Source: Planctomycetota bacterium (GTDB taxonomy: Bacteria; Planctomycetota; Planctomycetia; Pirellulales; UBA1268). From it: DNA of 64,000 nucleotides. Shown here piece by piece: positions 12,852 through 28,947 of this stretch (positions are counted from its first letter, which is position 1; every line of letters begins with the position of its first letter). Made by a program: the position numbers and the translations under genes. The notes under the pieces were generated by a model that worked only from the letters and a program-made list of their open reading frames with translations, did not search any database and was not told where the DNA came from. The stretch lies in assembly GCA_016872555.1 (NCBI GenBank), contig VGZO01000022.1, positions 1-64,000 on the forward strand. The letters run 5' to 3'.

Positions 12852-13819
12852 GGTGGGCCCCTGGAAAAGGTGCCGAACCGTCGAACGGCGCAACTCCGGA
12901 GGGAGCAGGCGCCGGCACGACGAGAAGTGAAACGCAGCGCCGCCAGACCACGCCGCACCAGCAGGACGTCGGGCGAACACAAGCCCGGCGAACAGACGTG
13001 GCGTGGAACCAGATCGCGGACTCGGCGACCGACGGGCCTCGCGTCGAGACAGAAGAAGAAGGCGCCGGGGAGTTATGCCATCGCCCGCGGCGCGGATAGG
13101 GCAACCATGCAGCAACCTCCAAGCCCCCTCTCACATGCTGTGGACAGCGTGGTCGGCCGCTGGCTGCGGCCGACGGCAACCCGGGAATCCCTCGGCGTCA
13201 CCCACGGTCGCCTGAGTGGACTGAATGAGCCGGCCGCCCCGCGGCCGGGCGCGGCCACGGAGGGCTCTGTCCACGGGCAGCTAGACTACCGGGCTACACA
13301 AAGGTCGCAGGCGGCTTCGACAACCGGCCCGTCGCGACGGCTGCATCGGGACCGTCATCAGCCCGCCGCACGAACCACGACAAGGATTTTTCCCGCCATG
13401 ACGCGCCCGCCTGCCCGCGCCGTCGGGCGGCAAGGCCGTCGCCTCGGCGACGGTCCGCCGGACGATCGGCACGCTGGCCCGCACGCTCGCGGAGCGCGGC
13501 GACCCGAGGTCGATGTTCAGCGGGAAACGGCTGTCAGCCTGCCGAAGGACTCTCCGTAGATCCGGCCCCGCATGACCCGCTCACCCGACAGCAAATCCGC
13601 GGGAAGGCCAGCCACCGTTCCGCGGTCATTGACGCGACTCATTACGGTTTCGTTATCCTGCCCAAGACTTGGCACCAACGCGGCATGCCTTACACTCGGA
13701 AGCTGAACAGGCACTGCGTAGTCCGAGTGGATCGCGCTCGAAGCCCTCCTCCCCGCCCCCCAGCCCGCCTGCCAAGACGGTCGGCCGGCTCCCCCCCAAT
13801 CAGTTGGCAGGAGCAGTAC
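12852..13819. other. 968-base gene-free divergent region
   Basis: Lies between the divergent hydroxylase-like and di-haem peroxidase genes. It carries a near full-length copy of the dispersed structured repeat (13153-13280). A short open stretch at about 13430-13565 (reading VASATVRRTIGTLARTLAERG on the plus strand) looks protein-like but has no start and matches nothing I recognise; it may be a gene scrap. The last ~30 bases are the peroxidase leader with AGGAG at 13809-13813. Confidence 0.6.
13153..13280 (-). repeat. Dispersed structured repeat, copy A (near full length)
   Basis: Read on the minus strand this copy runs CTGCCCGTGGACAGAGCCCT, a ~30-base GC insert, TCCACTCAGGCGACCG, the CGCCGAGGG block, and an 8-bp stem TCGGCCGC/GCGGCCGA around AGCCA (13153-13173). 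It aligns block by block with the copy at 35505-35604, with about 85-90% identity outside the insert. The stems are kept while loops vary, as expected for selection on structure. Confidence 0.75.
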
Positions 13820-16045
13820 ATGAAATCGCTCGTCCGGCTCCAGCGTCGCTGCCATGTCCGGTGTACGCGACTCGCATCAGCGGTTTCCGGCCGAGTGGTC
13901 GCCGTCGTCATCGGTGCCCTTCTTGGCGCGGTGACCGGTGGGGTGGCGTGCTCGTCGGACGACGACCCCGACGAGTTGCGGGAGAAAGCCCGGGAGGCGG
14001 GCCTCGACTCGCTTACCACGGTCTCGGTTCCAATCCCCAGCACCATCGGGGAATATGTCCGGGATCAGCGTGCCGCCATCGCGCTCGGGAAAGCCTTGTT
14101 TTGGGACCAACAAGCCGGATCGGACGGCATGGCGTGCGCGAGCTGCCATTTCCACGCCGGCGCGGACTCGAGGGTGAAGAACCAGATCTCGCCGGGATTG
14201 CTCGGCGGCAACGGCAGGTTTGACCGGCTCCCCTCCGGAACTGCATCCGGGGGTCCGAACTACACCCTCACCAGGGCTGATTTCCCGCTCCACCGCAAGA
14301 AAGACCCGCGGAGCAATCGGCTCGGGTCCAACGTCGCCTTCGACTCCGACGACGCCGTGACGTCAGCGGGGGTCGCAAACCTGTCGCTGCTCTCCCTCGG
14401 ACCACGGTCGAAGGTGCCGCCGGTCACCATGGATCTCGTCACTCAGCGGGCCAACCGGTTCCACGGAGTGACCCCGAGCTCGGCGGCAAGGGCCACGGTC
14501 GAACCGTTGATGGGAAGGGTGCTGGCGACCGAGGTCGCAGAGGCGTTCGACGCGGTTCAGCCCGACCCGCTCGGATTCTCGATTCCCTCGGGCAGCGGTC
14601 GACTGAACACGCGTCGGGTCGAACCGCGGAACTCGCCGACGGTCATCAACTCCGCTTTCAATCACAGGAACTTTTGGGACGGCCGTGCGAACTTCCACTT
14701 CAACGGCCGTAATCCGTTCGGGCCCCGCGACCCCGACGCGCGGGTCTGGAGGTTCAGGGGTTCGGCCCTCGAGCCCGTCGCCGTCCTTCTCGACAACGCC
14801 AGCCTCGCCTCCCAGGCGGTCGGACCCGTCGAAAGCGTCTTCGAGATGTCAGCCCACGGTCGGAGTTTCCTCGATGTCGGGCGGAAGCTGCTTGGCTCCA
14901 CCCCGCTGGTCCACCAGTCGGTCGCCGCGACCGACAGCGTCCTCGGACGCTACACCGCGTCTTCGCCGAGTCCGACGAGGACCGGCCTGAAGCCCGGCTA
15001 CGGCGACTTGATCCGCGAGGCGTTCGTGGAGTCGTGGTGGGGCGCCCCCGGCGAGCCGATCGTCATCGACGGTCAGCACTATTCGCAGATGGAAGCGAAC
15101 TTCTCGCTATTTTGGGGGATCGCGATCATGCTCTACGAGCGGACGCTGGTGTCTGACCGGTCTCCGTTCGACCGGTTCATGGAGGGCGATGATTCCGCGC
15201 TCACCCCTCTCCAGCGCACCGGACTGGAGCTGTTCATCGACGAGGGCAAGTGCGTCAGATGTCACTCCGGCCCCGAGCTCACGTCGGCATCCACCCGCGC
15301 ACGGCTCAACAGCTCCGGGTCGATCCGCCTGCAGCTGATCGATCGGATGGCCGCGCCGTCGGCACCGGCGATCTACGACGAGGGCTACTACAACATCGGT
15401 CTCCGCCCGGCCTTCGAGGACCTCGGCGTCGGCGACCGTGATCCGTTCGGCACGCCGCTGTCGTTCGCCGCCCAGGCGACGGGACGGTCCCGAACCGTCG
15501 ACGTCGCGCCCCCGTTCGGCGATCCCGACCGCTTCGAAGTCGACAAGGGCGTGCCCCCGGCGTCCGGTGAGACGATCGCGGTCGCGGGGGCCTTCAAGAC
15601 ACCGACGCTTCGCAACGTCGATCTGACGGGGCCATACTTCCACAACGGTGGTGCGCTCACGCTCGAGCAGGTCGTGAAGTTCTACGCGCGGGGATCCGAC
15701 TTCAAGCGGTGGAACAGCGCCAACGGGGTCGCGATGGCGTCGGATATCAAGGTCCTCCCGAAGCTCAACGGTGATCGCGCGAAGATCCGCGCGGTGGCGG
15801 CGTTCATGCGCGCCCTCACCGATCCGCGCGTCGCCTACGAACGGGCGCCGTTCGACCATCCGTCGCTGGCACTGCCCGATGGCCATGTCGCCGCCGACGA
15901 CGCCGCCATCCCCGGCGTGGCGCGCTCGATGATCGTCGTCAAGCCGGCGGTGGGGGCCGAAGGACTCGCGCGGCCGATCGAACCATTCCTCGGGGGGTCG
16001 CTCGTCGGGCCCGACGGAGCGCCGAGAGATGACGGGCTGCGCTGA
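13820..16045 (+). CDS. Di-haem cytochrome c peroxidase/MauG-family protein
   Basis: A 741-residue exported protein with two haem-binding motifs, CASCH (106-110) and CVRCH (478-482). It also has the family segment KTPTLRNVDLTGPYFHNGG with FYARGSDF near the C-terminus. The N-terminus has a signal or anchor segment (about 24-44). At 741 residues it is about twice a standard CcpA, as in the larger MauG-like peroxidases of planctomycetes. It probably acts in the periplasm, reducing H2O2 or oxidising a protein partner. AGGAG lies six bases before the ATG. It overlaps the first pseudopilin gene by 17 bases, so it heads that operon. Confidence 0.85.
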   Translation: MKSLVRLQRRCHVRCTRLASAVSGRVVAVVIGALLGAVTGGVACSSDDDPDELREKAREAGLDSLTTVSVPIPSTIGEYVRDQRAAIALGKALFWDQQAGSDGMACASCHFHAGADSRVKNQISPGLLGGNGRFDRLPSGTASGGPNYTLTRADFPLHRKKDPRSNRLGSNVAFDSDDAVTSAGVANLSLLSLGPRSKVPPVTMDLVTQRANRFHGVTPSSAARATVEPLMGRVLATEVAEAFDAVQPDPLGFSIPSGSGRLNTRRVEPRNSPTVINSAFNHRNFWDGRANFHFNGRNPFGPRDPDARVWRFRGSALEPVAVLLDNASLASQAVGPVESVFEMSAHGRSFLDVGRKLLGSTPLVHQSVAATDSVLGRYTASSPSPTRTGLKPGYGDLIREAFVESWWGAPGEPIVIDGQHYSQMEANFSLFWGIAIMLYERTLVSDRSPFDRFMEGDDSALTPLQRTGLELFIDEGKCVRCHSGPELTSASTRARLNSSGSIRLQLIDRMAAPSAPAIYDEGYYNIGLRPAFEDLGVGDRDPFGTPLSFAAQATGRSRTVDVAPPFGDPDRFEVDKGVPPASGETIAVAGAFKTPTLRNVDLTGPYFHNGGALTLEQVVKFYARGSDFKRWNSANGVAMASDIKVLPKLNGDRAKIRAVAAFMRALTDPRVAYERAPFDHPSLALPDGHVAADDAAIPGVARSMIVVKPAVGAEGLARPIEPFLGGSLVGPDGAPRDDGLR

Positions 16046-17111
16046 CCCTGCCGGCTGCGTCCCGGCGGCTTGCCGACCGAGTCGCCGGGCCGCGTCCCAC
16101 CGTCGGCAACGGGTGACGTCGGCCGCTTCGCGGCGAGGGTTCACGCTCGTCGAGTTGGCCGTCACGATGGCGATCGTGGCTATCTTGGGGGCACTGGCGA
16201 CCGTCTCGCTCGCGGGCATCAGGACGCGGGCCAAGGTGGCGAAGACCCGCAGCACCATCCGCAAGCTTCACGAGGCGATCGTGCCGCGCTACGACGCTTA
16301 CCTCGATCGCCGCCTCGACGATTCGATGTGGACCGGCCACGAGTTTGAGATCGATCGCTCGCAGCTCGGCATCGCTGCCGGCACCTCGCGGCGGGCGGCA
16401 TGGAAGAGGCTCGTGCAGATCCGCGGGATGATGGTGTGCGAGATGCCCGATCAGTGGCTCGACGTTCGCTATCCGGTCTACCCAAACGATCCGAAAGACC
16501 CGCTGCGCACGGGCGGTGCACCTCCCGGCACGCCCGTGCTCGAGCGGTTCCTCCGGCAGATCGATTCCTGGGTGGACCGTGCCGACCCGGAGCGGCAGTC
16601 CCGCGACGCGGTCCTCGCCGGACTCGGACGCTCGGCCGCATCGGCGGAGACCCTGTTTCTCGTCGTGGCGTTGGGGTCGTTCGAGCCGGACGCCCTCGAG
16701 CCGTTTCGGGCCGACGAGCTCGGTGATGCCGATGGTGACGGGGCGCGCGAATTCTCCGACGGCTTCGGCCGGCCGATCCACTTTCTCCGCTGGGCACCCG
16801 GGGCGATGCCGCCCGCCGGGTCACGGCCGGGGACCGATCCGTTCGACCCGTATCGCCTGGGAGGGGAGAGCTCGTTCCCACTGACGCCGTTGATCGTTTC
16901 GGCGGGGCCAGACGAGCGCATCGGGGTGCGCAGGGACGCTACCCACCCGATCGTCGACCAGGGCTCGCCGTGGACCGCGGCACGGCCGAACGGCGTGAGC
17001 TTCGTGCCGCTGCCGTTCGATCCCTTCTCGCGACTGGAGGCGGGCAGCCCCGAACCGATGCAACGCTCCCACCTCGACAACGTCACCAACCTCGGGATGG
17101 GCGTGCCATGA
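16029..17111 (+). CDS. Prepilin-type protein 1 (GspG/PilE-like N-terminus)
   Basis: A 360-residue protein with the prepilin peptidase motif RRG-FTLVELAVTMAIVAILG: cleavage after Gly36 gives an N-terminal Phe, with Glu at +5. The hydrophobic helix would anchor it before assembly. The ATG at 16029 has GGAG nine bases upstream and overlaps the peroxidase stop; a GTG at 16113 would give a more usual short leader (MTSAASRRG). The large globular part has no named domain. First of five pseudopilin-like genes. Confidence 0.8.
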   Translation: MTGCADPAGCVPAACRPSRRAASHRRQRVTSAASRRGFTLVELAVTMAIVAILGALATVSLAGIRTRAKVAKTRSTIRKLHEAIVPRYDAYLDRRLDDSMWTGHEFEIDRSQLGIAAGTSRRAAWKRLVQIRGMMVCEMPDQWLDVRYPVYPNDPKDPLRTGGAPPGTPVLERFLRQIDSWVDRADPERQSRDAVLAGLGRSAASAETLFLVVALGSFEPDALEPFRADELGDADGDGAREFSDGFGRPIHFLRWAPGAMPPAGSRPGTDPFDPYRLGGESSFPLTPLIVSAGPDERIGVRRDATHPIVDQGSPWTAARPNGVSFVPLPFDPFSRLEAGSPEPMQRSHLDNVTNLGMGVP

Positions 17112-18229
17112 GCTTCACCGTGCCGAGCGGGCGCGACGGCATGACGCTCGTCGAACTGCTGGCCGTGATCGTGATCCTCGGTCTCCTGTCGGTGGCGGTC
17201 ATCCCGATCCTCGACGGCGGGGAGCTGCGGGCCGCGCGGAACGCCGCCGCCTCGATGACCAGCCTTGTCGCGACGGCCCAGGGGCGATCCCTCGGTCATG
17301 ACAGCCCTGCGGGGTTGTGGATCGAGCCGCTGTCGGTCGACGCGGCGATCGACGTGGTGCTCGCGCGACAGCCGGCGCCCTACCGCGGCGACACGTTCGA
17401 CGCGACCGTCGCGCTGTCCGGTCCCGTCGCCGGCGGGACGATGGAGCTGACGTTTTCCGAAAAGGGCACGTCGGTGACCACGCTCACGGCTCCGGCGGAG
17501 ACCCCGTTCGCGACGACCGGCGATTTCATCGAGTTCGCCGGTTCAGCGAGCCGGTTCACGTTGATCTGCCCCGATCCGCCGGCGAGCACCGGCTTCCGTG
17601 CGGCGCTCCGGGCGGAGGCCGGGCAGACGGCGGCCAACACCCTCTGGCCGACTCCGGCGCTCGAGGGATCGGGCACGGTGTGGCACGGATTCTCGATCCT
17701 CCGGCGCCCGGCGCCGGCAGCCGCGGGGCTGACGCTCGGTTCGGGCCTCGCGATCGACCTCGCCTGGTCGGGTGTCGGCACGGGGCGCTTCGGTCGAACG
17801 GCCTTGGCGGGAGATGGCTCGGCTACCGCCGACGTGTCCGACGACGTGCTGCCGCTGGGCACCTACACGGCCGGCCAGGCGATCGCGATCCTGTTCGACC
17901 GCACCGGGGCCGTCGGCGAGATCGGTTTTTTCAACACCGCGACGACGGTCGCCGCCGGTGAGGCGCCCGACCATACGGCCGAGCTGCGGGCGCCGCTGCA
18001 GGCACCCCTGTTGCTGCTCGTCGGCCGAATCGACCGGTGTGGCCTGGGATTCCGGGAGCCGGTGTCGGAGGAGGCCCCGGGGGCGAACTGGCAGTATCCG
18101 GAGTCGTTCTGGGTGTCGATCGATCCCAAGACGGGGCTCGCCCGTTCCGCGCGGGTCACCCTTCGCGACGCGGATGGCCCGGTCACCACGGCCCGGCGGT
18201 CGCAGGCCGCGATCCGTTCGGCACCCTGA
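17108..18229 (+). CDS. Prepilin-type protein 2 (GspH-like)
   Basis: A 373-residue protein with a short leader (MSFTVPSGRDG) and the cleavage motif G-MTLVELLAVIVILGLL, Glu at +5, then a beta-rich globular part. It overlaps gene 1 by ATGA (17108-17111), so it is translationally coupled. The first processed residue is Met rather than Phe, as in some minor pseudopilins. Probably a minor pseudopilin of a type II secretion-like or type IV pilus-like machine whose motor and secretin genes are not in the window. Confidence 0.78.
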   Translation: MSFTVPSGRDGMTLVELLAVIVILGLLSVAVIPILDGGELRAARNAAASMTSLVATAQGRSLGHDSPAGLWIEPLSVDAAIDVVLARQPAPYRGDTFDATVALSGPVAGGTMELTFSEKGTSVTTLTAPAETPFATTGDFIEFAGSASRFTLICPDPPASTGFRAALRAEAGQTAANTLWPTPALEGSGTVWHGFSILRRPAPAAAGLTLGSGLAIDLAWSGVGTGRFGRTALAGDGSATADVSDDVLPLGTYTAGQAIAILFDRTGAVGEIGFFNTATTVAAGEAPDHTAELRAPLQAPLLLLVGRIDRCGLGFREPVSEEAPGANWQYPESFWVSIDPKTGLARSARVTLRDADGPVTTARRSQAAIRSAP

Positions 18230-18240
18230 GGGGCGAAGGC

Positions 18241-19287
18241 ATGACGCGTCCACCTTCCCCGGCGCGGCGTCGCGCGGGGATCACGATCCTCGAAGTCTTG
18301 ATCGCGATCGGCATCCTCGCCATCGGGCTGTCGAGCATCCTCGCCCTGATTCCGCTCGGCCGGTCCCTGCTCACCAAGGCGATCGTCGCCGATCACAGCG
18401 GTGTCCTGCTCGACAATGCCCGGGCGACGGTCGTCACGTCGGGGCTCACCCATGTCGACGCGCTGGCGGCGGCAGACGGCGGGCCGTGTCCCGCCGCGCC
18501 GCTGGTGATCGATCCGCTGGGGCAGTCGCGCGGCACGTGGCCCGCCCGCTTCGGGCTGAACACGGCCGTTCTCCGTGCGGGAGGCACGCTTGCCGACAGG
18601 ACCCCGGACAGCGCCCGGCCGCGGTCATGGCAGGTTTCGGCGCTGACGGGTTCCTCGTCGGACGACGTGCTCATGACGACGCCCGACGGCGACACCCCGG
18701 TCACCAATCGCTTCGTCAACGGGGTCCGCGCGGCGGCCGGCCGGTTCAGCTGGCTGGCGGTGCTGGCCAAGGACACGGCGACGCCGTTGGTCCCCGGCGA
18801 GCTGGCGACGTTGTGGATCGTCGTCTCTCGCAACCGGGTCCTCGGCCTGATGCCTCCCGAAGATGGCAACGCGACGGCGCTCGAGTTGCGGCTGACGCCG
18901 CGCGGACCCGATGGCGCGCGGACCTCCCTCCCGCCGTATCGGCTCGCGTGGCAGCGCGGACGCGACGTCGTTCCCGACCGCCTCGATCGCGAGGTCGTGA
19001 AGAAGGGAGCGATCCTGCTCGTCCTCCCCTCCGGTCCCGAGGAGGACCCGTACCGTCCCCCGCGCTTCCTGTCGTTGGCGACGGTCACCTTCCCGGATGC
19101 CGCTGCGGGTGCGCCCAGCGAGGCGGAGGTGACGTTCGAAGGTGATCCGTCGCCGGTGGGGGAGTCATCGGCCGGTGATCCCGCCGAGCCTCGGCCGGTC
19201 TCGCTGCCCGTCGCGATCCTGCCCGATGCGACCGCCGTGCGGGCCTACACGGTTACCATCGAGGGGAGGAACGAGTACACCCGATGA
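18241..19287 (+). CDS. Prepilin-type protein 3 (PilV/GspI-like)
   Basis: A 348-residue protein; leader MTRPPSPARRRAG then ITILEVLIAIGILAIGL, with Glu at +5 of the predicted cleavage site. AGGGG lies seven bases before the ATG at 18241. The N-terminal sequence resembles PilV/GspI; the body has no recognised domain. It follows gene 2 by 11 bases and overlaps gene 4 by four. Confidence 0.75.
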   Translation: MTRPPSPARRRAGITILEVLIAIGILAIGLSSILALIPLGRSLLTKAIVADHSGVLLDNARATVVTSGLTHVDALAAADGGPCPAAPLVIDPLGQSRGTWPARFGLNTAVLRAGGTLADRTPDSARPRSWQVSALTGSSSDDVLMTTPDGDTPVTNRFVNGVRAAAGRFSWLAVLAKDTATPLVPGELATLWIVVSRNRVLGLMPPEDGNATALELRLTPRGPDGARTSLPPYRLAWQRGRDVVPDRLDREVVKKGAILLVLPSGPEEDPYRPPRFLSLATVTFPDAAAGAPSEAEVTFEGDPSPVGESSAGDPAEPRPVSLPVAILPDATAVRAYTVTIEGRNEYTR

Positions 19288-22200
19288 CGGTCCGCCGCAT
19301 AATGAACAGCCTGCCGGCACTTCCCGAGCCGCCCCGTGGCGCCGCAGCCCGACGGCCGCCGACCAGCCAGCATCGCGGGGTGATCCTGCTGATCGTGCTG
19401 AGCATGCTGTCGCTGTTCATGGTGCTGGGTGTCACGTTCGTGGTGCTGTCGGCCCGGACCCACGCGACGGCGCGGGCGGTGGCGACCACGCCCCAGGCCA
19501 CCGCCGACGCGATCCTGCCCACAGAGCGACTCCTCAAGCAGGCCGCGATGCTCCTGCTCCGCGGATCGCCGGAGACCACGTCCGAGCGGCAGCCGGCGGC
19601 GCTCGGCGGTTCCACGGACGAAACCGACGCCGATCCGGCCCGGGCGCTGGTCTTCGAGGCACTGCTCGTCGACCAGTACGGCACCGAACAACCACTCCGC
19701 GGGACGCTCGTCGACATCGTCGACTGCGGCCCGCTGTACCGGCTCACGGTCGAGCTTCCCCCGTCGGCGACGGTCACGCCCGCCGAGTTGAGTGGACGCG
19801 TCGTGTCGCTGCTGCCGGTCGGAGCGTCCGCGACGAGCCACCGCATCGTCCGCGCCGAGGTGGAAGAACGCCGTACGATCCGCCTCTGCGTCACGCACGA
19901 CGGGCTCCGGCTGTCCCGGTCGTCCGCCGGCGCGGAGCGCGACCTCGCGCGGGCCGGGACCGAAGTGATCATCAACAATCGTGCCCACAGTTCCCGCGGC
20001 ACGACGAAGAATGAGGCCTGGGACGGCTTCGACGCGGCGAATCCCTACTTGGCCCACGTCGAGCCCGACCCTGCCAGACCGTCGCGGCAGCTGGTGATCC
20101 GGCCGTCGCTGTTCAAACCCGAGGCCGTCGAGGCCCTCGACGACCCTGACGCGTCCAACGACGACCTCGACGGCGATGGCGTCGACGACCGGGCCGACAA
20201 CGACAACGACGGCGTGTTCGACGGCTGGTTCTTCGACCCGCGGCTGCCGCGGATCGTCTCGCCGCGCACCGGCCTTCCGGTACAGGTCCATGTCTCCTTC
20301 CTGGTCCTCGACATGGATGGACGGCTCAACGTCAATGCCCACGGGTCGGTCAACGATCTCCTCCGCCGCGCCGACACGGTGCCGTACGGCAGTGGCTACG
20401 GCCCGGCGGAGATCGACGGGGGCGCCGTGTTTCGGTCGCTGGCCGAGGAGAGCGGCAACCACCGCGGCGACGACCCGTGGATGAACGTGCTGCTCGGTGC
20501 CCGTGCCGGGAGCACGCTTCATCAAACCTCCCTGCCGCGATCCGGAGACCGCCTGATGCCGCTGGAGTCGCCTGCCGGTGCGGCGGTCGAGGGGCGCTAC
20601 GGCTGGCGAGCAAACGGGGCATCGGCGCCGCTGCGCGACCTTGCCGATTGGACCGTGCTCGCCGAGGCGCTGCCGTTGCCCGGTCACAACGGCGTCGCCG
20701 ACCCCGCGGCGGCCGACGGCATCCGCAACCTCATGATGGTGCCGCCGGGGCGTCGGGACTGGGCGGTCGATCTCCAGGCGCGGCTCCAACGGCGCGCGGT
20801 CCTCGAGCCGGGGCCGGTCCCGACGATGTCGTACGCGAAAGCCGACAGCAGAGACGAATTCGTCGACCACCCCTACGAGATCACGCTCACCGGCCTCGGG
20901 CGCCGGACCGGGCTCCACGACCCGGCGACGAGCGGGACAGCGCCGAGCGGCGTCGCCGACAATCCGTTCTCGCCGGCGGAACTGGAGCGGATCCTGCGCC
21001 CCTACGATCCGGATTCCCCCACGCTCCCGGAGCGGCTCGCCGGGCTCCTCGGATCGCAGGCCGAGGCGTCGCGGTTGGTCGTCACGACCGACAGCTGGGA
21101 CACCGCGGCGATCGTCGGAGATGCGGCCCTGCGGGTCTACGAGTGGTTTTCGGCCGTGCCGGCGGGGGTGCTCCACGAGCACGCCGCAGCGGACGCCGAG
21201 CGCGCGGAGATGGCAGCGGGCGAGCGGATCCCGAACAACGTCATACCTGCCGAGCTCGCGGCCGGCCTGCGGATCGACGTGGCCCGGCCCGTGGGCGGCG
21301 CCCTCCAGCGCCGGTTGTTTTTCAAGGACCTCTACATGGCCGCCGTCGCCCTGTCGGCACCGGCCGGCGCGGATCCCTCGGCCGATGTCGCCCGGCGCTG
21401 TGCCCAGTGGGCAGCGAACGTCATCGAATACCAAGACACCGACTCGACGATGGGCCGGTTCGAGTACGACATCCGCCCGCTCGACGGCTGGGATGTCGAT
21501 GGCGATCCGACGACCGTCGAACCGCAGCGTGCCACGGTGTGGGGTGCGGAACGGCCCGAGGTCGTGATCACCCAGACACTCGCCTGGGAGGACGAGACGA
21601 CCGGCGAACTGTTCGTGGTGCTCAATCACCCCTGGGACGGGCGTGTGGGCGACGGGCAGCCGGGTTCCGCCGAGCCCGTCGATCCCGATCTTGCCGGGCC
21701 GCTCGGCCCCGGCTCGGTCGATCTGGGGCGACGGGCTCCGGCCGGCGACCCGATCTGGCGGATTCGCTGTGGGGACGCGTTCACGTTTCCGGCGCGCGGC
21801 ACGTGCCTCGAGGCCAATCAGTGGCTCGTCCTCGCGCCGGGCACGGTATCGACGAAAGGGATCCGTGTGCCGACACCGACCCCGACGCGGCGCGTGGTGC
21901 CGATCGAGGGGCTCCGGGCCACCGTCCTGCCGCCGGGCGGAGCGCCAGCGCCGCGGCCCCGCGCGACGTTCGTGTATCTCGAGAGGCTTGCCGATCCCCG
22001 CGCCGACCACGACACGACGACCAACCCCTACCTGATCGTCGACGCCCTGTCGGTGATCGTCGCCGATCGCTCGGGCGCGGCCGACGAGGAGGGTGACCCG
22101 GACGCTCGCTTCACGTCGTGCCGGCGCAACGCCGGGTGGGCCCAGCAACATGACGAACGGCAGTGGCCGAAGGGGGAGGCGCCGGAGATCACCACCGAGT

Positions 22201-23117
22201 GGGAAGGCGACCCGCGCTGGTTCTGTTGGCCGAATCGTCCGCTGACGAGCCTCGCCGAGCTGGTGTTCGTGCCGGGATTCATCTCCGGAGCGGTCAACGA
22301 CGAGACTCACCGCGACGGCGTGGGGATGCTCGACGACCACGTCACCGATCCCGACGACGGCGTCTATCTCCCCGATCGCATTCCCGGCGACGAACTGATC
22401 GCCCTCGACGCCTTCATGGTGCCGTCGCGATTCGCCGGCACCCGGCAGAGCATCGACCGCACCGCCCCCTACTGGGATGCCCTCGCGCGCCACGCCGTCG
22501 GCTTCGCCGGCGACGCGGCGGCGTCCTATCGAGCGCCCTTCGACGGCAACGAACTGCACGTCGGACGGGAGCCGGGACGGGTCAATCTCAACACCATCTC
22601 CTCCGATGCCGTCTGGGAGGCTGTCGTCCAGGGGACCGTGCCGCGGATCGACGAGCGTCGGGACCGATCTCCGTACGCACACGGCCTCGTCCGGGCGCGC
22701 ACCAGCGGCACGGTGCCGACGACAGGCCGGTTCGCGGAGCTCGCTTCGACGGGCACCGCGGGAACCATCTCCCCGGCGAAGACGACCGGCCAGGTGCTCG
22801 GCCTGTCCGGCGTCGAGGTCAGGCCGACCCTCGTCCTCAACGGCACCAATGCGATCGCCGACGCCAGCCTCAATCCCGCGCACGCCTACCATACGGCGAT
22901 CCGGCTGAGCAGCCTGGCGACCCACCGCTCGCACGTCTTCGGCATCTGGATCACGCTGCGGACGATCGACACGGTGCCCGGCGGCGGCGTCGACCGTGAG
23001 ACGGTGAGCCTGCACCGGATGTTCCTCGTCTACGACCGGTCGCGGCCCGTGGCCTTCGAGCCGGGGCGCGATCACAACGTCCGCGACGGAATCATCCTCG
23101 AGCGGGTGCTCCGATGA
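19284..23117 (+). CDS. Giant GspK/PilX-like protein with Asp-rich calcium-loop motif
   Basis: A 1277-residue protein whose N-terminus (RGVILLIVLSMLSLFMVLGVTF, membrane helix about 32-56) is like GspK/PilX, the pseudopilin that caps the tip, but without the Glu+5. GspK proteins are normally ~300-400 residues, so this is three to four times as long. Residues 286-314 hold an Asp-rich stretch (DLDGDGVDD, DNDNDGVFDG) like calcium-binding thrombospondin type-3 or dockerin loops. It overlaps both neighbours by ATGA. A tip adhesin or scaffold role is inferred. Confidence 0.75.
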   Translation: MTVRRIMNSLPALPEPPRGAAARRPPTSQHRGVILLIVLSMLSLFMVLGVTFVVLSARTHATARAVATTPQATADAILPTERLLKQAAMLLLRGSPETTSERQPAALGGSTDETDADPARALVFEALLVDQYGTEQPLRGTLVDIVDCGPLYRLTVELPPSATVTPAELSGRVVSLLPVGASATSHRIVRAEVEERRTIRLCVTHDGLRLSRSSAGAERDLARAGTEVIINNRAHSSRGTTKNEAWDGFDAANPYLAHVEPDPARPSRQLVIRPSLFKPEAVEALDDPDASNDDLDGDGVDDRADNDNDGVFDGWFFDPRLPRIVSPRTGLPVQVHVSFLVLDMDGRLNVNAHGSVNDLLRRADTVPYGSGYGPAEIDGGAVFRSLAEESGNHRGDDPWMNVLLGARAGSTLHQTSLPRSGDRLMPLESPAGAAVEGRYGWRANGASAPLRDLADWTVLAEALPLPGHNGVADPAAADGIRNLMMVPPGRRDWAVDLQARLQRRAVLEPGPVPTMSYAKADSRDEFVDHPYEITLTGLGRRTGLHDPATSGTAPSGVADNPFSPAELERILRPYDPDSPTLPERLAGLLGSQAEASRLVVTTDSWDTAAIVGDAALRVYEWFSAVPAGVLHEHAAADAERAEMAAGERIPNNVIPAELAAGLRIDVARPVGGALQRRLFFKDLYMAAVALSAPAGADPSADVARRCAQWAANVIEYQDTDSTMGRFEYDIRPLDGWDVDGDPTTVEPQRATVWGAERPEVVITQTLAWEDETTGELFVVLNHPWDGRVGDGQPGSAEPVDPDLAGPLGPGSVDLGRRAPAGDPIWRIRCGDAFTFPARGTCLEANQWLVLAPGTVSTKGIRVPTPTPTRRVVPIEGLRATVLPPGGAPAPRPRATFVYLERLADPRADHDTTTNPYLIVDALSVIVADRSGAADEEGDPDARFTSCRRNAGWAQQHDERQWPKGEAPEITTEWEGDPRWFCWPNRPLTSLAELVFVPGFISGAVNDETHRDGVGMLDDHVTDPDDGVYLPDRIPGDELIALDAFMVPSRFAGTRQSIDRTAPYWDALARHAVGFAGDAAASYRAPFDGNELHVGREPGRVNLNTISSDAVWEAVVQGTVPRIDERRDRSPYAHGLVRARTSGTVPTTGRFAELASTGTAGTISPAKTTGQVLGLSGVEVRPTLVLNGTNAIADASLNPAHAYHTAIRLSSLATHRSHVFGIWITLRTIDTVPGGGVDRETVSLHRMFLVYDRSRPVAFEPGRDHNVRDGIILERVLR

Positions 23118-24505
23118 CGCCGTCGCGGCCAGCGCACAACGGCGTCGGCGGGCGGCACGGCATGACGCTCGTGGAGATGCTGGTGGCAACCGCGGCCACG
23201 ATGATCGTCATGGGTGCGGTCGCCGTGATGTTTGCCGAATTCGCCCGCGGCGTCGGCAACGGCCGCGCCGTGATGGATCTGAACGCGCGGCTGCGGACGA
23301 CGGCTCTCCTCCTGCGGCGCGATCTGGATGGCGTCACAGCCCCTCTCCTGCCGCCGCTCAGCCCGGCAGCCGGGGCCGGTTACTTCGAATACATCGAGGG
23401 TCCCCGGCAAGACCGGGATGCAGCCGACGGTTCGGCCGAGCTCCGGGCCGACACCGACGACGTGTTGCTGTTCACCACGGCCGGCGTCGAGCGACGGCTC
23501 GTCGGCACGTTCGACGACGGCATCCTGAACGCCGGCACGGCGGAGGTGGCGTGGTTTCTCCGGCCGACGGTGCCGGCGACGGTTCCGCCCACCTGCACGC
23601 TGTACCGACGGCAGTTGCTCGTGGTCGGCCGGCTCGGGACGGCGGAGCTCGGGCGGATCCTCGCGCGATTCCGTACGGGAGGCCTGGCGGCGGTCTACGA
23701 CCGGTTCGACGTCTCGCTGGCACCCGTCGGCTCGGGCTCCGCGGCGCGCCTGGTGCCGAACACGCTCGCCGATCTGACGTGCCGCGAGCGACGGTTTTTC
23801 CATGGTCCGCTGGATCCTGCGGTGGCGGGGGGATTCCCGTTCCCGTTCATCGCCGATCACCAGATTCCGTCGCTCTCGACGTCCACGGAAACGCTTCCAC
23901 CCTCGGCCCGCGGCCTGGTGTTCGATTCCACCAGCCACCGCCAGGGCGAAGACGTGCTGCTCACCGGCGTGATCGCGTTCGATGTCCGGGTCTTCGATCC
24001 GGCGGCACCCGTCGCGCTCGGAGGGGGCGACGGTCTCACGGCGGTGACGCCCGGCGATGCCGTCGAGATCGGCGGCGGCATCGCCAACGGGTGCTACGTC
24101 GATCTTGGCAATGGCGTCCACGGTCGAGCCGCGTCACTTCCCGAGACGCAGGGCCCCCGATTCGCTGGTTACGGGCACCCGCTCAGTGGAGGGCTCGTCG
24201 GATCGGCGACGACCCGGCGCACCTACGACACGTGGACCACCCACTACGAGTCCAACGGCATCGACGAGGACTCCGCCGCCGGACCCGATCAGGCGACGAA
24301 CGGACTCGACGACGACGTTCCGCCCCGGTCCGGAGCCCTCACCGGGCATCCGGCCGACGGCGTGGCCGACGACAGCGGCGAATTGGAGACTTCACCGCCA
24401 TATCCGTTCCCCGTACGGGGGATCGAGATTCGAATCCGCTGCTACGAACCCGAAGCCAGGCAGGTCAGGCAAGTCACGGTTCGACACTGTTTCGTGCCCC
24501 ACTGA
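23114..24505 (+). CDS. Prepilin-type protein 5 (PilW/GspJ-like)
   Basis: A 463-residue protein; leader ending GRHG then MTLVEMLVATAATMIVMG, Glu at +5, as in PilW/GspJ minor pseudopilins. Near the C-terminus an acidic Gly/Asp segment (NGIDEDSAAGPD, NGLDDDVP) recalls the Asp-rich motif in its neighbour. Last gene of the run; a hairpin follows three bases after the stop. Confidence 0.78.
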   Translation: MTPSRPAHNGVGGRHGMTLVEMLVATAATMIVMGAVAVMFAEFARGVGNGRAVMDLNARLRTTALLLRRDLDGVTAPLLPPLSPAAGAGYFEYIEGPRQDRDAADGSAELRADTDDVLLFTTAGVERRLVGTFDDGILNAGTAEVAWFLRPTVPATVPPTCTLYRRQLLVVGRLGTAELGRILARFRTGGLAAVYDRFDVSLAPVGSGSAARLVPNTLADLTCRERRFFHGPLDPAVAGGFPFPFIADHQIPSLSTSTETLPPSARGLVFDSTSHRQGEDVLLTGVIAFDVRVFDPAAPVALGGGDGLTAVTPGDAVEIGGGIANGCYVDLGNGVHGRAASLPETQGPRFAGYGHPLSGGLVGSATTRRTYDTWTTHYESNGIDEDSAAGPDQATNGLDDDVPPRSGALTGHPADGVADDSGELETSPPYPFPVRGIEIRIRCYEPEARQVRQVTVRHCFVPH

Positions 24506-24853: not shown

Positions 24854-26171
24854 GGTTCTTCCGGTATTTCAGTGGCAGGGTAGCCGCGGGCTGAGGTCGA
24901 GTTTCCCGCAGAAGAACAGGATTCGCGTCCTGTAGTTCTGGAAGGACCGGAAGCCACGAGCTGCGTACTTCAAGGCCTGGATGACGCTGTTGAAGCCCTC
25001 GCTCGTGGCGTTGGTGATGCGGTGCCGGAAGTAGCTCAGAGGATTTGGCAGATGGCGATTGAGCATTCTCGCCACCTTGATGATCGGCCGCAGGCGGCAC
25101 CGCACACCCCAGGCGTACCACTGGTTGAAGAAGTCCTCGGCACTCGTCGGCTACACATGCCGCCAGAACCAGCGGAACTCCTCCTTGATCGCCCAGGCTC
25201 GGGCCGTCTTCAGGCCGTTCCGCCGGATGGCCGCGAACCTGCGCCGCTGCTTTGGCGAGAGATTGGCTTTGTTGAAGAGCCAGAGCTGCCGTGTCCCCGT
25301 GAGCCGGTCATCGTCTTCGGCCTGAAGAGCCTTGTTCTCGGCACGCCGCACCTGATCGACCGCCTCTCCCAAGTGCTTTGCGACACGGAACTTGTCGTGC
25401 ACGAGTTCCGCGTTCGGGGTCTGGTTCGCCACCGCGCTTGCGTAGGCTGGGAGCATGTCGGCAGCCGCGGCCACAACCTCCTGCCGCTGCTCGACCGTCA
25501 GCGTCTCAAGGACGGCCTCCGCCGCGGCCTGGGTTCGCCCTGGGGCGACGTCCAGGACGCGGGAGCCGTCAATGTCGGTGACAACGGTGACATAGTCGTG
25601 CCCTTTTCCGAAGCTCTTCTCGTCGATGCCGACGTGGGGAATGGGCGTCGCCTCGCGCCGCTCGAGGCCCCGTTCGACGGCCCGATCCATGATTGTCTGG
25701 GCCGCATCCCAGGAGAGCCCGAGGAGGGAGGCCGCGGCCTTGACGGTGCGGCATGCCTGCAGGACTTCTATGGCGAAGGCTTCGAAGAACAGCGTGAAAC
25801 GGCTGTGCTTTCCTGCCCACAGCGGCACGATCGTCTTCACCCGGTGATCCGGGCAGCGGCACCGTGGCAGTCGGGCGACCAGCTCCGTCGTGAACTGCAT
25901 CGTGTCGAGGTGCCGCCAGCGCCGCTCCTCCGCGTGATCGGCAATACCGCAGGATTGGCTGCATTCCGGGCAGTAAACGCCCGAACCGACATGCGCCAGG
26001 CGGATTTCGACTCGCCGCTCATCGAGCCGAAGGTCAACAGCATCGACTCGCCAGGAGTTGTCGAGGCCCAGAAGCCGGGTATAATGCGTGAAAAGTGCGT
26101 CCATCCCCGCACTTTATGTCACCGAAGCCCCCGGAACGACCTGCCCGTGCCACGAAATTCCCCGAAGAACC
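24854..26171 (-). mobile_element. ISL3-family insertion sequence, 1318 bp
   Basis: Both ends are visible. The left end begins GGTTCTTCCGGTATTTC and the right end, read inward from 26171, begins GGTTCTTCGGGGAATTTC: imperfect inverted repeats of about 27 bp. Perfect 8-bp direct repeats TGTTTTTC flank the element. One ISL3 transposase gene fills it, so length and layout are standard. It inserted between the pilin operon and the multicopper oxidase gene. The transposase carries one nonsense codon, so the copy is probably no longer autonomous. Confidence 0.92.
24869..26104 (-). pseudogene. ISL3-family transposase with an in-frame TAG
   Basis: The frame spans 412 codons, the usual ISL3 transposase size. 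It starts MDALFTHYTRLLGLDNSW, has the N-terminal zinc-finger cysteines (CPECSQSC, CRCPDH), the first catalytic Asp in GIDEKSFGKGHDY, the DMLPAY region and a conserved C-terminal part with NATSEGFNS and ILFFCGKL. Codon 318 is TAG (25151-25153) after FRWFWRHV; the same frame continues intact for 94 codons with PTSAEDFFNQWY. A Tyr codon is likely at that place in the ancestor. The missing part holds the last catalytic Glu (SEGFN), so the truncated protein should be inactive. Confidence 0.88.
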
Positions 26172-26287: not shown

Positions 26288-28198
26288 ATGCCCAAGCGTC
26301 GCGTTTCCAGTTTCGTCGACCGTCGTCCGAGCTCATCCCGTGTTTCTGCTGCCGCGACATCCCGTCGCAAACTCCTCGGAACCTCCGTTGCCCTGTCTGC
26401 CGCTCTCGGCACATCGCGGCTCCACGCTCAAAGCAGGCTCCCGGATCAGCAGTTTCCGGTGCTCAAGCAGCCCGACGCCCCGTTGACGGTCGACCTTTCG
26501 ACGTTCGCCGATCCGCTGATCAACGAACAGATCCCGCGGTGGGTCGATCGGATCATCTTCCCGCGGTGGCTGCCGCCGGTTTCGACGGGAGCCGTTCCGT
26601 CAGCCTTCGGTGGCCCGGTCGGAAGTGTCCACCACGGCGTCGCCCCGGAGTGGTTTTCGCACCCAGCCGATTGGGATCGCTTCCCCACGCAGTATTACCA
26701 GTTGTACTACACAACGGGCAGCTACAGGTTCCTCCCCAGTTCGATGCGGATTCCCGCGACGAACTTCTGGGGGTATGCGGGCGGAGGGGCGAACGGAACG
26801 ATGTTTCCCGTGGGGTTGCCCCCGCTTTTTCGATCCCGGATCGGCCAACCGGCACTCGTGCGCGTCATCAACGCATTGCCGGAGGAAATGTCGCTGCACA
26901 TGCACGGTGGCCACTGGCCGGCACACCCCGACGGCCATCCCGACTTCCTGATTCTGCCAGGAAAGGGACGCGATTATTACTATCCCAATGTCCTGCCGCG
27001 GAAGAACGGCGGCAACGAGTCCGGTTCAGCTTTTGACACAACCGAGTCGCCCAGCACGATGTGGTATCACGACCACGCGATCCACCTCACCGCGGCCCAC
27101 GTCGCGCGCGGATTAGGCGGAGGTGTCAACCTCTGCCTCGATGACCTCGAAACCGACCTGATTCGCTCAGGGGTCCTGCCCGGCATCCGGGGCACGTCGG
27201 ACGTCGGCCCCGAGTACCGCAACCCCTACGATTTGCCGCTGGTCATCCGCGACGACATCTTCGACACGAAGGGGCAACTCAACTACACGAGCAACGGCCA
27301 CAACGGCTATCTCGGCAACGTGGCGCGCGTCAATGGCCTGGCCTACCCGTACATGCAGGTCGAGGCCCGAAAGTACCGGTTTCGCGTGCTCAACGCGAGC
27401 AACGCCCGGGTCTGGCGACTGCGGCTGAGCAACAACGCCCCGTATCTCCGAATCGGAAAGGACGCTTGGCTGTTCCCCAAGCCGCAGCAAACCCAGTCGA
27501 TCCTTCTCGCGATAGCGACGCGGGCCGACATCGTCGTCGACTTCAGCAAGTACCGCCCGGGCACCGAGATCTATCTGGAGAATATTCTCCATCAGGAGGA
27601 TCCGCGCGGGCCGGACGGCAAACTGGAGGACGAAAACGTCACGACCGCGCCGACGGCACCCGACTGGCGGCATCGGATCCTGAAATTCGTGGTCGTCCCG
27701 AGGGATAACCGTTTTCCCGACGCTTCGATCAACCTCACGTCGTCGTTGCGGCCGCACGAGACACCTCCGGCCAATTTGGTCACGGCGCGGCGGAGGTTCC
27801 GTTTCGAGCGGAAGAACGGGATGTGGGCGATCAACGGTGCGTTCTACGAGCCCAACATCGCCAACGCGTTCATGCCGGAGAACGCCGTCGAGGAGTGGAC
27901 CCTTCACAACGGGGGTGGTGGATGGTGGCATCCGATCCACATCCACCTCGAATCACATACCCAAGTCGCCGATCTCCGTACCAGGAAGCCGATCCCGTAT
28001 CACGACAGCTTCAAGACCGACACTACGACCCTGGGGCCTAACTCCGAGATCGTGGTGCGGATGAGGTTTCGAACATTCCGGGGACCGTTCGTGTTTCACT
28101 GCCACAACGTGGAGCACGAAGACATGGACATGATGTTTCAGTTCGACCCACGGATTCCGATGTCCAACTCCCCGGCCCCGCAGCGGTGGTTTCCATGA
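26288..28198 (+). CDS. Tat-exported multicopper oxidase (CotA/bilirubin-oxidase type)
   Basis: A 636-residue protein with a twin-arginine signal (SRRKLLGTSVALSAALG, about 25-42). Copper ligands are complete: H204-x-H206 in LHMHGGH, H261/H263 in WYHDH, H548/H551/H553 in HPIHIH, and H604-C605-H606 with H610 and Met615 in HCHNVEHEDMDM. Met615 as axial ligand points to a type-1 copper of moderate potential, as in CotA. The oxidase would oxidise phenols, bilirubin-like compounds or metal ions with O2 in the periplasm. GGAG lies five bases before the ATG. It overlaps the SCO1/SenC gene by ATGA, which fits copper delivery to this enzyme. Confidence 0.9.
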   Translation: MPKRRVSSFVDRRPSSSRVSAAATSRRKLLGTSVALSAALGTSRLHAQSRLPDQQFPVLKQPDAPLTVDLSTFADPLINEQIPRWVDRIIFPRWLPPVSTGAVPSAFGGPVGSVHHGVAPEWFSHPADWDRFPTQYYQLYYTTGSYRFLPSSMRIPATNFWGYAGGGANGTMFPVGLPPLFRSRIGQPALVRVINALPEEMSLHMHGGHWPAHPDGHPDFLILPGKGRDYYYPNVLPRKNGGNESGSAFDTTESPSTMWYHDHAIHLTAAHVARGLGGGVNLCLDDLETDLIRSGVLPGIRGTSDVGPEYRNPYDLPLVIRDDIFDTKGQLNYTSNGHNGYLGNVARVNGLAYPYMQVEARKYRFRVLNASNARVWRLRLSNNAPYLRIGKDAWLFPKPQQTQSILLAIATRADIVVDFSKYRPGTEIYLENILHQEDPRGPDGKLEDENVTTAPTAPDWRHRILKFVVVPRDNRFPDASINLTSSLRPHETPPANLVTARRRFRFERKNGMWAINGAFYEPNIANAFMPENAVEEWTLHNGGGGWWHPIHIHLESHTQVADLRTRKPIPYHDSFKTDTTTLGPNSEIVVRMRFRTFRGPFVFHCHNVEHEDMDMMFQFDPRIPMSNSPAPQRWFP

Positions 28199-28947
28199 CC
28201 GGGTTCGGCCGCACGATGTCCATCGCCGCGATTGCGGCCTCGCTCGCGTTGTCCGCGGCCTGCCATGGCGAGGAATCCGCGTTGCCTGCGGTGGCCACGG
28301 CGGCCATCGGGAGCCCGCCCGTCGGGCCGCTTCACCTGATGCGCCACCCGATGGGGGATCGCCTCCCGGACGCGGCCCTCGTCGACGACACCGGCCGCGA
28401 CGTGCGGTTCATGTCGGACCTCGTCAGGAATCACGCGGTGGTGATCAGTTTTTTCTATACGACCTGCCGGGGCACCTGCCCGGGGACGAATCTGGTGCTC
28501 GCGGACCTCCGCGATCGGCTTGCCACCGACTTCGGCCGGTCCGTGCGCATGATTTCGATCAGCATCGAACCGGAGAAGGACGACGTTGACGCGATCGCCG
28601 AGTATGCCGCGCGGTATCGCCTTCCGACGACCGATCCGGATACCCCGGAGTGGGTGTTCCTGACCGGTTCGGCCGACGAGATTCGTGGCCTCAGACGGGC
28701 CCTCGAACTGTACGACAGGGACCCCGCGGTGGACCTCGATCCGACACAGCACGCGGCCGCGGTCGTTATCGGCAATCATGCAACCGGTCGTTGGTCCACC
28801 GTACCCGTCGGGGTCGGTGCGGAGCGGCTGTCATCCCAGGTGAGCAGAGTCGCGGGCTGGACGGCTGCCCAGCGGTATTCCACCCACCGCTCCCCGCCGC
28901 GGGGACCCGACGGCGGGGCGGCGACGATCCTGGCGGAACAGCGCTAG
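28195..28947 (+). CDS. SCO1/SenC/PrrC-family copper chaperone
   Basis: A 250-residue thioredoxin-fold protein with a signal or anchor segment (8-24), the copper-binding pair C91-x3-C95 in TTCRGTCPG, and the distal His186 (PTQHAAAVVIGN). All three SCO metal ligands are therefore present. SCO proteins load or reduce copper centres, classically CuA of cytochrome oxidase; here overlap with the multicopper oxidase suggests that enzyme as client. It ends with TAG at 28945-28947. Confidence 0.85.
   Translation: MTGFGRTMSIAAIAASLALSAACHGEESALPAVATAAIGSPPVGPLHLMRHPMGDRLPDAALVDDTGRDVRFMSDLVRNHAVVISFFYTTCRGTCPGTNLVLADLRDRLATDFGRSVRMISISIEPEKDDVDAIAEYAARYRLPTTDPDTPEWVFLTGSADEIRGLRRALELYDRDPAVDLDPTQHAAAVVIGNHATGRWSTVPVGVGAERLSSQVSRVAGWTAAQRYSTHRSPPRGPDGGAATILAEQR

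Follow-up and report, generated by a model that had tools for sequence, protein, structure and literature searches.

The question raised by this locus is what a large di-haem peroxidase (P1) has to do with the five prepilin-like proteins (P2–P6, the cassette) whose genes follow its own. In the window, by which we mean the whole 64,000-nucleotide stretch of DNA analysed, the six genes lie on the + strand, and the layout described in the initial annotation, with a 17-base overlap between P1 and P2, three ATGA overlaps at the starts of P3, P5 and P6, and an 11-base gap between P3 and P4 as the sole gap, is confirmed (Table 1). The P1 reading frame opens at 13685, and the ATG at 13820 was taken as its start because it is supported by relatives. 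Scans with patterns that may not fit the host gave one weak promoter-like site at 13669–13696 (shuffle mean 0.4) and no terminator-like site at any gene junction. The locus runs on beyond 24505: past an ISL3-family transposase gene lie genes for a multicopper oxidase and SCO1, both conserved, the SCO1 start overlapping the oxidase end by 4 bases. The DDE domain match of the transposase spans only positions 1–160 of 240, and the element is missing from the corresponding place in two relatives, G007 and G206.

Table 1. Features of the locus, with positions in the window
Feature	Position	Strand	Basis or remark
P1, large di-haem cytochrome c peroxidase (CCP_MauG family)	13820..16045	+	PF03150, two CxxCH; likely exported
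P2, prepilin-like; equivalent to the core-cluster pilin in second place after GspG	16029..17111	+	PF07963, 29.4 bits
P3, prepilin-like, GspH-like by place	17108..18229	+	PF07963, 22.0 bits; weak GspH/GspG model matches
P4, prepilin-like, GspI/PilV-like	18241..19287	+	PF07963, 21.7 bits; weak PilV/GspI model matches
P5, 1277 residues, GspK-like by place and N terminus	19284..23117	+	Calcium-type Asp-rich loop
P6, prepilin-like, GspJ-like	23114..24505	+	Weak GspJ model matches in P6 family; place after P5 conserved
ISL3-family transposase	25151..26104	-	PF01610, 157.9 bits; between cassette and oxidase
Multicopper oxidase	26288..28198	+	PF07731, 65.9 bits; Tat-like N terminus SRRKLLG, by eye
SCO1/SenC copper chaperone	28195..28947	+	PF02630, 50.6 bits

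P1 matches PF03150 (CCP_MauG) with 82.8 bits against a cut-off of 25.6, and two CxxCH motifs are present in 29 of the 30 peroxidase rows of the tree, the remaining row being cut by a contig end. An N-terminal export signal, judged by eye, makes P1 a likely exported protein. Among its neighbours, the prepilin N-terminal methylation motif (PF07963) is above cut-off in P2, P3 and P4; P6 scores 20.8 bits as a protein against a cut-off of 21.2 and lies above it in the genome scan. P5 matches neither PF07963 nor any other curated family and is prepilin-like solely by its hydrophobic N terminus and its place among homologous clusters; of the 196 genomes in the order, 164 have a P5-type protein. P2–P6 greatly exceed the curated Gsp models in size and stay below the GspG, GspH, GspI and GspJ cut-offs (best 20–22 bits against 80–89 for GspG and GspH, and less for the others). 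No useful match to a solved structure came from profile searches with P5 and P6, and the structure models have a mean pLDDT of 29.3 (P6, 3 rows) and 26.8 (P5 from residue 301, 4 rows). Place and weak matches suggest that P5 and P6 correspond to GspK and GspJ. Verru_Chthon cassettes resemble P2–P6 in that several prepilin-like genes follow one another and one of them encodes a very large protein. Membership in this group was rejected: the four models (TIGR02596, 02598, 02599 and 02600) give at most 15 bits, in the N terminus only, against cut-offs of 51–257, and TIGR02600, which represents the large member, has no match among 18 P5-type proteins at E 0.1.

P2–P6 correspond, gene by gene and in order, to the five genes that end the pseudopilin block of the family's type II secretion-like E-F-G cluster. 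The matching block lies downstream of E-F-G at three loci (L082, L084 and L085); the host version is split over two unjoined contigs, C63 and C13, whose cut ends, considered together with relatives, make a single E-F-G-P2-P3-P4-P5-P6 cluster probable. Family matches for GspE, GspF, GspG, secretin and prepilin peptidase in the host are all on other contigs, and none for GspE, GspF, secretin or peptidase is on that of the window, in agreement with the earlier remark that no ATPase, secretin or prepilin peptidase is nearby. With ATPase, platform protein, secretin and peptidase outside it, the locus falls short of a full type II secretion system or type IV pilus, and the five-gene cassette has no major pseudopilin (GspG) of its own. 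In the P5 tree the seven peroxidase-type copies form a single clade (100/100), sister to an E-F-G-linked copy. These sequence comparisons show that P2–P6 are paralogues of the E-F-G pseudopilin block, not a self-contained pilus, and that the cassette has a single origin, in one duplication without the motor genes. As compared with type II GspG-H-I-J-K sets, P2–P6 share the prepilin N termini, the E-F-G block order and one very large GspK-like member, whereas E, F, G, secretin and peptidase are missing here and peroxidase and oxidase genes are attached.

Comparison of gene order in other planctomycetes, as the initial annotation proposed, indicates that the peroxidase and the cassette have stayed together: linkage and order are kept in all five readable relatives, which with the host represent three genera, and because this holds at protein identities of roughly 38–70% the linkage is beyond chance. 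The 17-base P1/P2 overlap recurs in G206 with the same ATGACGGG start; in G007 the overlap is replaced by a gap of ~58 bases, and P2 is absent from the three readable g10 genomes (G151, G211 and G208). Reading frames are intact across the 4-kb genes, except that P5 of G206 is split between two frames. Other genomes hold parts of the set: G155 has oxidase and SCO1 at a contig end, with peroxidase and cassette undetected, and G167 and G147 have cassette fragments, with peroxidase and oxidase undetected. In G238 (locus L101), a close relative, a peroxidase 71% identical and sister to that of the window stands without cassette or oxidase, and the peroxidase can therefore do without both. The separation of peroxidase and pilin genes envisaged earlier is thus found in G238 and in Verrucomicrobia but not within the cassette-carrying clade. 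RTX and Ig/FG-GAP surface-type proteins adjoin the locus in relatives. Two betaproteobacterial loci have a separate run of peroxidase, secretin and prepilin genes.

Oxidase orthologues (at least 67% identity) occur in 6 of the 8 cassette genomes as against 1 of 22 others. The oxidase lies downstream of the cassette on the same strand in the window, G007 and G206, and SCO1 adjoins it in G007, G206, G155, G151, G211 and G208. The oxidase-SCO1-peroxidase group is also present without pilins in Verrucomicrobia (L104, L105 and L107) and elsewhere, and at three loci (L115, L125 and L144) the oxidase and peroxidase are fused. The redox theme first proposed for the operon is supported; the chance membership offered beside it is unlikely, since the linkage is conserved and a multicopper oxidase and SCO1 flank the cassette. 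In the mnxG/mcoA manganese-oxidase operons of Pseudomonas, SCO1/SenC follows the multicopper oxidase as in the window (PMC11409713), but the window oxidase scores best with the CueO model, far below its cut-off; manganese oxidation by the locus could be guessed at from this pairing. Among the open-licence PMC papers listed in searches on planctomycete pseudopilins and on oxidase-peroxidase-SCO1 clusters, none describes such a locus in its title or abstract.

We propose, with about even confidence, that an exported oxidase-peroxidase set is encoded here beside a private, duplicated tip block that adapts a shared machine for its export. The exported set would comprise the di-haem peroxidase and the Tat-type multicopper oxidase, with SCO1 for copper supply. 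The shared prepilin peptidase would process the private P2–P6, which would cap the shared apparatus (GspG, E, F and secretin) with an alternative, GspK/J/I/H-like pseudopilus tip. This tip would move the folded peroxidase, and perhaps also the oxidase, across the outer membrane, and the two enzymes may act jointly at the cell surface. The following points count in favor of a dedicated tip: (i) the block order matches that of the E-F-G clusters; (ii) the peroxidase-type P5 proteins are one clade, sister to an E-F-G-linked copy; (iii) the machine components are matched only on other host contigs; (iv) the cassette is linked to the peroxidase in 5 of 5 relatives and associated with the oxidase in the proportions given above, the oxidase following it on the same strand in the window, G007 and G206; and (v) fusions and the betaproteobacterial runs exist. 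Against it count the solitary peroxidase of G238 and the pilin-free state of most of the 77 related loci, the partial sets of G155, G167 and G147, the identification of GspK and GspJ by place and weak matches with models of low pLDDT, and the mainly periplasmic location reported for CorB, a methanotroph di-haem peroxidase (PMC3912023). The Methylococcus di-haem protein MCA2590 has been placed at the cell surface (PMC4831470) and included among possible type II substrates (PMC4257694).

Substrate choice by type II systems is an old open question in which the pseudopilus tip is one suspect, and one shared machine with a second tip set beside the likely cargo would make the role of the tip directly testable. 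A wider proposal, which we hold somewhat more tentatively, is that an interchangeable, cargo-dedicated tip redirects a shared type II-like machine and that the oxidase-SCO1-peroxidase group, a candidate extracellular enzyme set that is sometimes fused, is an undescribed redox system of several phyla.

Alternatively, a spare pseudopilin block may have been copied beside a mobile oxidase-peroxidase group, with which it would share a transcript and not a task. The pilin-free groups of Verrucomicrobia, the lone G238 peroxidase, the absence of P2 from three cassette genomes and the ISL3 element inside the locus all count in favor of such hitch-hiking, but we consider it unlikely in view of the linkage and order retained in all readable relatives despite their divergence, the overlap start common to the window and G206, and the frames kept intact, G206 P5 excepted, across 4-kb genes.

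That P2–P6 form an extended pilus-like structure displaying or wiring the peroxidase outside the cell appears improbable. The big C-terminal domains, the Asp-rich loops and the surface-type neighbours in relatives would suit a fibre of this kind, and size and loop were the features that first suggested a structure extending outside the cell and not a standard secretion pseudopilus. The P5 loop does exist, but with a core (D305, D307, D309 and G310) invariant in 18 of 18 aligned P5-type homologues it is a family trait, already found in the ordinary E-F-G cluster, the large domains of which are of the same kind. The suggestion itself is not supported, given the paralogy of the cassette to the E-F-G block, in the same order and without a major pilin (GspG) of its own; moreover, there are just two haem motifs and no multihaem cytochrome in the cassette of the window.

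A role in maturation can be considered from the relationships of P1. SACCP is presumably close to it. The best NCBIfam scores of P1 are with the MauG and MbnH models, both so far under cut-off (88.7 against 443.85 and 103.4 against 362.85 bits) that it is not MauG or MbnH proper by these curated models. The methanotroph pairs SACCP/MopE and CorB/CorA resemble the P1 locus, in the reading proposed above, in having a surface or near-surface di-haem peroxidase in a copper-linked neighbourhood (PMC4831470, PMC3912023), and tryptophan oxidation by the peroxidases of MopE and CorA is proposed (PMC3621798, PMC3912023); the neighbours that were scanned with Pfam include no recognisable MopE- or CorA-like partner. 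In the four cassette P5 proteins 20 Trp are invariant, 6 of them group-specific, as compared with 8 of 21 Phe and 19 of 61 Asp by the same count and 0 of 2 Trp in P6; the Trp/Tyr count in P5 and P6 is uninformative because the control rows are more diverse than the cassette rows. Oxidation of Trp or Tyr in the pseudopilins or oxidase by a MauG-like P1, to which its family, its top scores, the proposed MopE and CorA chemistry and the invariant Trp might point, is the least probable reading, given the shortfall from the MauG and MbnH cut-offs, the failure of the count to single out Trp and the pilin-free related peroxidases of many phyla. At most of the 77 loci that hold a related peroxidase, no pilin is nearby; a 97-residue motif match at L140 was discarded as spurious. 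P1 shares with the BCCP/MauG family, including MbnH, the CCP_MauG domain, two CxxCH motifs and the FWDGRA and FKxPTLRN stretches, which align with those of solved BCCP structures matched by sequence; these structures have 308–477 residues as compared with ~740 in P1.

The window, on contig C22 of a host genome of 4.47 Mb in 162 contigs, carries one di-haem peroxidase gene (P1) and five prepilin-like genes (P2–P6, the cassette), all on the + strand. On re-reading, the coordinates, overlaps, and lengths assigned to these genes in the initial annotation proved correct. The prepilin motif is present in P2, P3, P4, and P6, the match in P6 being borderline; in P5 (1277 residues) the motif does not score and the N terminus is hydrophobic and prepilin-like. 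Curated models and fold prediction do not place the cassette proteins, which reached no Gsp or Verru_Chthon (NCBIfam prepilin cassette) cut-off and were given no placement by fold prediction either, so that the labels "GspK-like" and "GspJ-like" rest on place, N terminus, and weak model matches. The host genome has 47 prepilin-motif matches at E ≤0.001, 4 of which lie in this cassette. Four peroxidase-type copies of P5 share four invariant cysteines (C202, C706, C829, and C946) that other P5 proteins rarely have; disulfides or a metal site are possible roles.

Coordinates of the peroxidase, the cassette, and the genes that follow in the window
Feature	Position	Remark
Di-haem peroxidase (P1)	13820-16045	start backed by comparison with relatives
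Cassette (P2–P6)	16029-24505	
P5, GspK-like	19284-23117	
P6, GspJ-like	23114-24505	
ISL3-type transposase	25151-26104	after cassette
Multicopper oxidase	26288-28198	after transposase
SCO1	28195-28947	four-base overlap with oxidase gene

Matches to P1 at E 1e-20 or better were found in 9 of 60 family genomes, the host included, and strong orthologues (59–71% identity) occur outside the host in five of these 60 (G206, G007, G151, G211, and G208). G007 carries the full set of six in a row. G206 has the peroxidase, P2, P3, and P4 together on one contig, whereas its P5, split over two frames, and its P6 share a second contig. P3 directly follows the peroxidase in G151 and G211, where P2 is absent, and the same order is seen in G208, whose peroxidase is split over two contigs. 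From gene order, the peroxidase and the cassette can be read as linked in 5/5 relatives having both. Genome G238, which speaks against the link, was added from a sample of 396 genomes from the order, 10 of which match P1 at 1e-60. Its peroxidase is 71% identical to P1 and its sister in the tree (99/99), yet its 16-kb contig lacks pilins and its genome has no such cassette, a state that would reflect either loss or a transfer that took in only the peroxidase. In G167 and G147, fragments of the cassette lie at contig edges, and no peroxidase was detected.

As initially annotated, no ATPase, secretin, or prepilin peptidase is nearby: the window's contig has no match to these or to GspF. Elsewhere in the host, ATPase matches are on contigs C63, C11, and C5, GspF matches on C63 and C3 (weaker on C11 and C37), the single secretin match on C36, and the single peptidase match on C47. 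C63 carries GspE-, GspF-, and GspG-like genes (E, F, and G) with P2-, P3-, and P4-like genes running off the contig end, and C13 starts with a P5-like gene followed by a P6-like gene. In relatives of the same family (L082, L084, and L085), GspE- and GspF-like genes, named from likeness to those of C63, precede a GspG-like gene, after which come P2- to P6-like genes in order; L076 has the same order up to a contig end inside P5. Because this order is common to the relatives and to C63/C13, the window block corresponds to the pilin block of the E-F-G cluster without E, F, and G. Among 196 genomes from the order, 164 have P5-type proteins (E 1e-5). In a tree of 22 such proteins, the seven peroxidase-type copies form one clade (100/100), whose sister is one E-F-G-linked copy, from G092 (100/100); such a tree would result if the block was duplicated once and then became separated from the motor genes. 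Two loci (L079, G025:C5; L087, G007:C69) have two tandem pseudopilin blocks, complete or near-complete, at the secretion cluster, which belong to different lineages in the P5 tree.

The oxidase-SCO1 pair likewise follows the cassette on the same strand in G007 and G206, with RTX-repeat genes around the pair; none was found in the window. Among 30 genomes searched, oxidase orthologues (≥67% identity) occur in 6/8 with this cassette type versus 1/22 others (G155), with weaker matches in G124 and at one further G208 locus; in G151, G211, and G208, the oxidase-SCO1 pair and a second oxidase are on other contigs. G007 and G206 also have an Ig/FG-GAP protein gene upstream of the peroxidase on the same strand, and G151 and G208 an RTX gene upstream on the opposite strand. 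RTX-repeat proteins adjoin the peroxidase or oxidase in relatives (L069:467-1951, L071:5790-7283, L073:134-1552, and L101:3741-4898), and one of the four has a weak match to a planctomycete extracellular signal. Histidine kinase and probable response-regulator genes (L071:2097-5736) adjoin the G151 peroxidase locus.

P1 relatives were found at 77 loci in many phyla in the genome-collection scan, and 62 of these loci include 3 kb or more on at least one side. By BLAST at 1e-12, oxidase and SCO1 are both near in six (L104, L105, L107, L125, L138, and L144), oxidase without SCO1 in two (L153 and L168), and neither in most; these counts are lower bounds, as L115 was picked up by Pfam only. Oxidase and di-haem peroxidase share one reading frame in L125:7427-11902 and L144:483-5210, and a 4529-residue frame in L115:4367-17956 has Cu-oxidase and CCP_MauG domains. 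These single frames come from Gammaproteobacteria and Chloroflexota records. A second, more distant planctomycete peroxidase (32–38% identity; L094, L095, L097, and L098) follows an oxidase-like and then an SCO1-like frame; in this group (L096 is cut) the peroxidase has ~1000 residues and pilins are absent. The fusions and recurring neighborhoods argue that oxidase and peroxidase work jointly. P1 may be nearer SACCP, a methanotroph di-haem peroxidase, than other superfamily members, which we take as a lead.

In the most economical account, for which we put the chances at about even, private pseudopilins would form a dedicated tip on a shared secretion machine, which would thereby export the peroxidase and oxidase encoded at the same locus. 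Hitch-hiking of the pilin block with the oxidase-peroxidase group is the less likely explanation. A surface fiber built from P2–P6 is improbable. That the peroxidase is a maturation enzyme seems slightly more doubtful still; SACCP is described as a possible modifier of its partner MopE (PMC3621798, PMC3912023). MCA2590 is reported in the Methylococcus surface fraction, raised at low copper (PMC4831470), and is listed as a possible type II substrate (PMC4257694). For the dedicated-tip reading, this literature is context only.

Pilin genes are near P1 relatives in 6/77 loci, namely four planctomycete cassettes already counted (L100, L102, L103, and L112) and two betaproteobacterial bins (L110 and L119). 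The latter two count as one event because the loci are related to each other, and one peroxidase-secretin link among 77 could be chance. Both (L110:217-12010 and L119:1136-11115) have, on one strand, a secretin, three prepilin-like genes, a 776–778-residue protein, and the peroxidase, with 54–76% identity between the loci; in L110, one or two small genes intervene, along with a histidine kinase.
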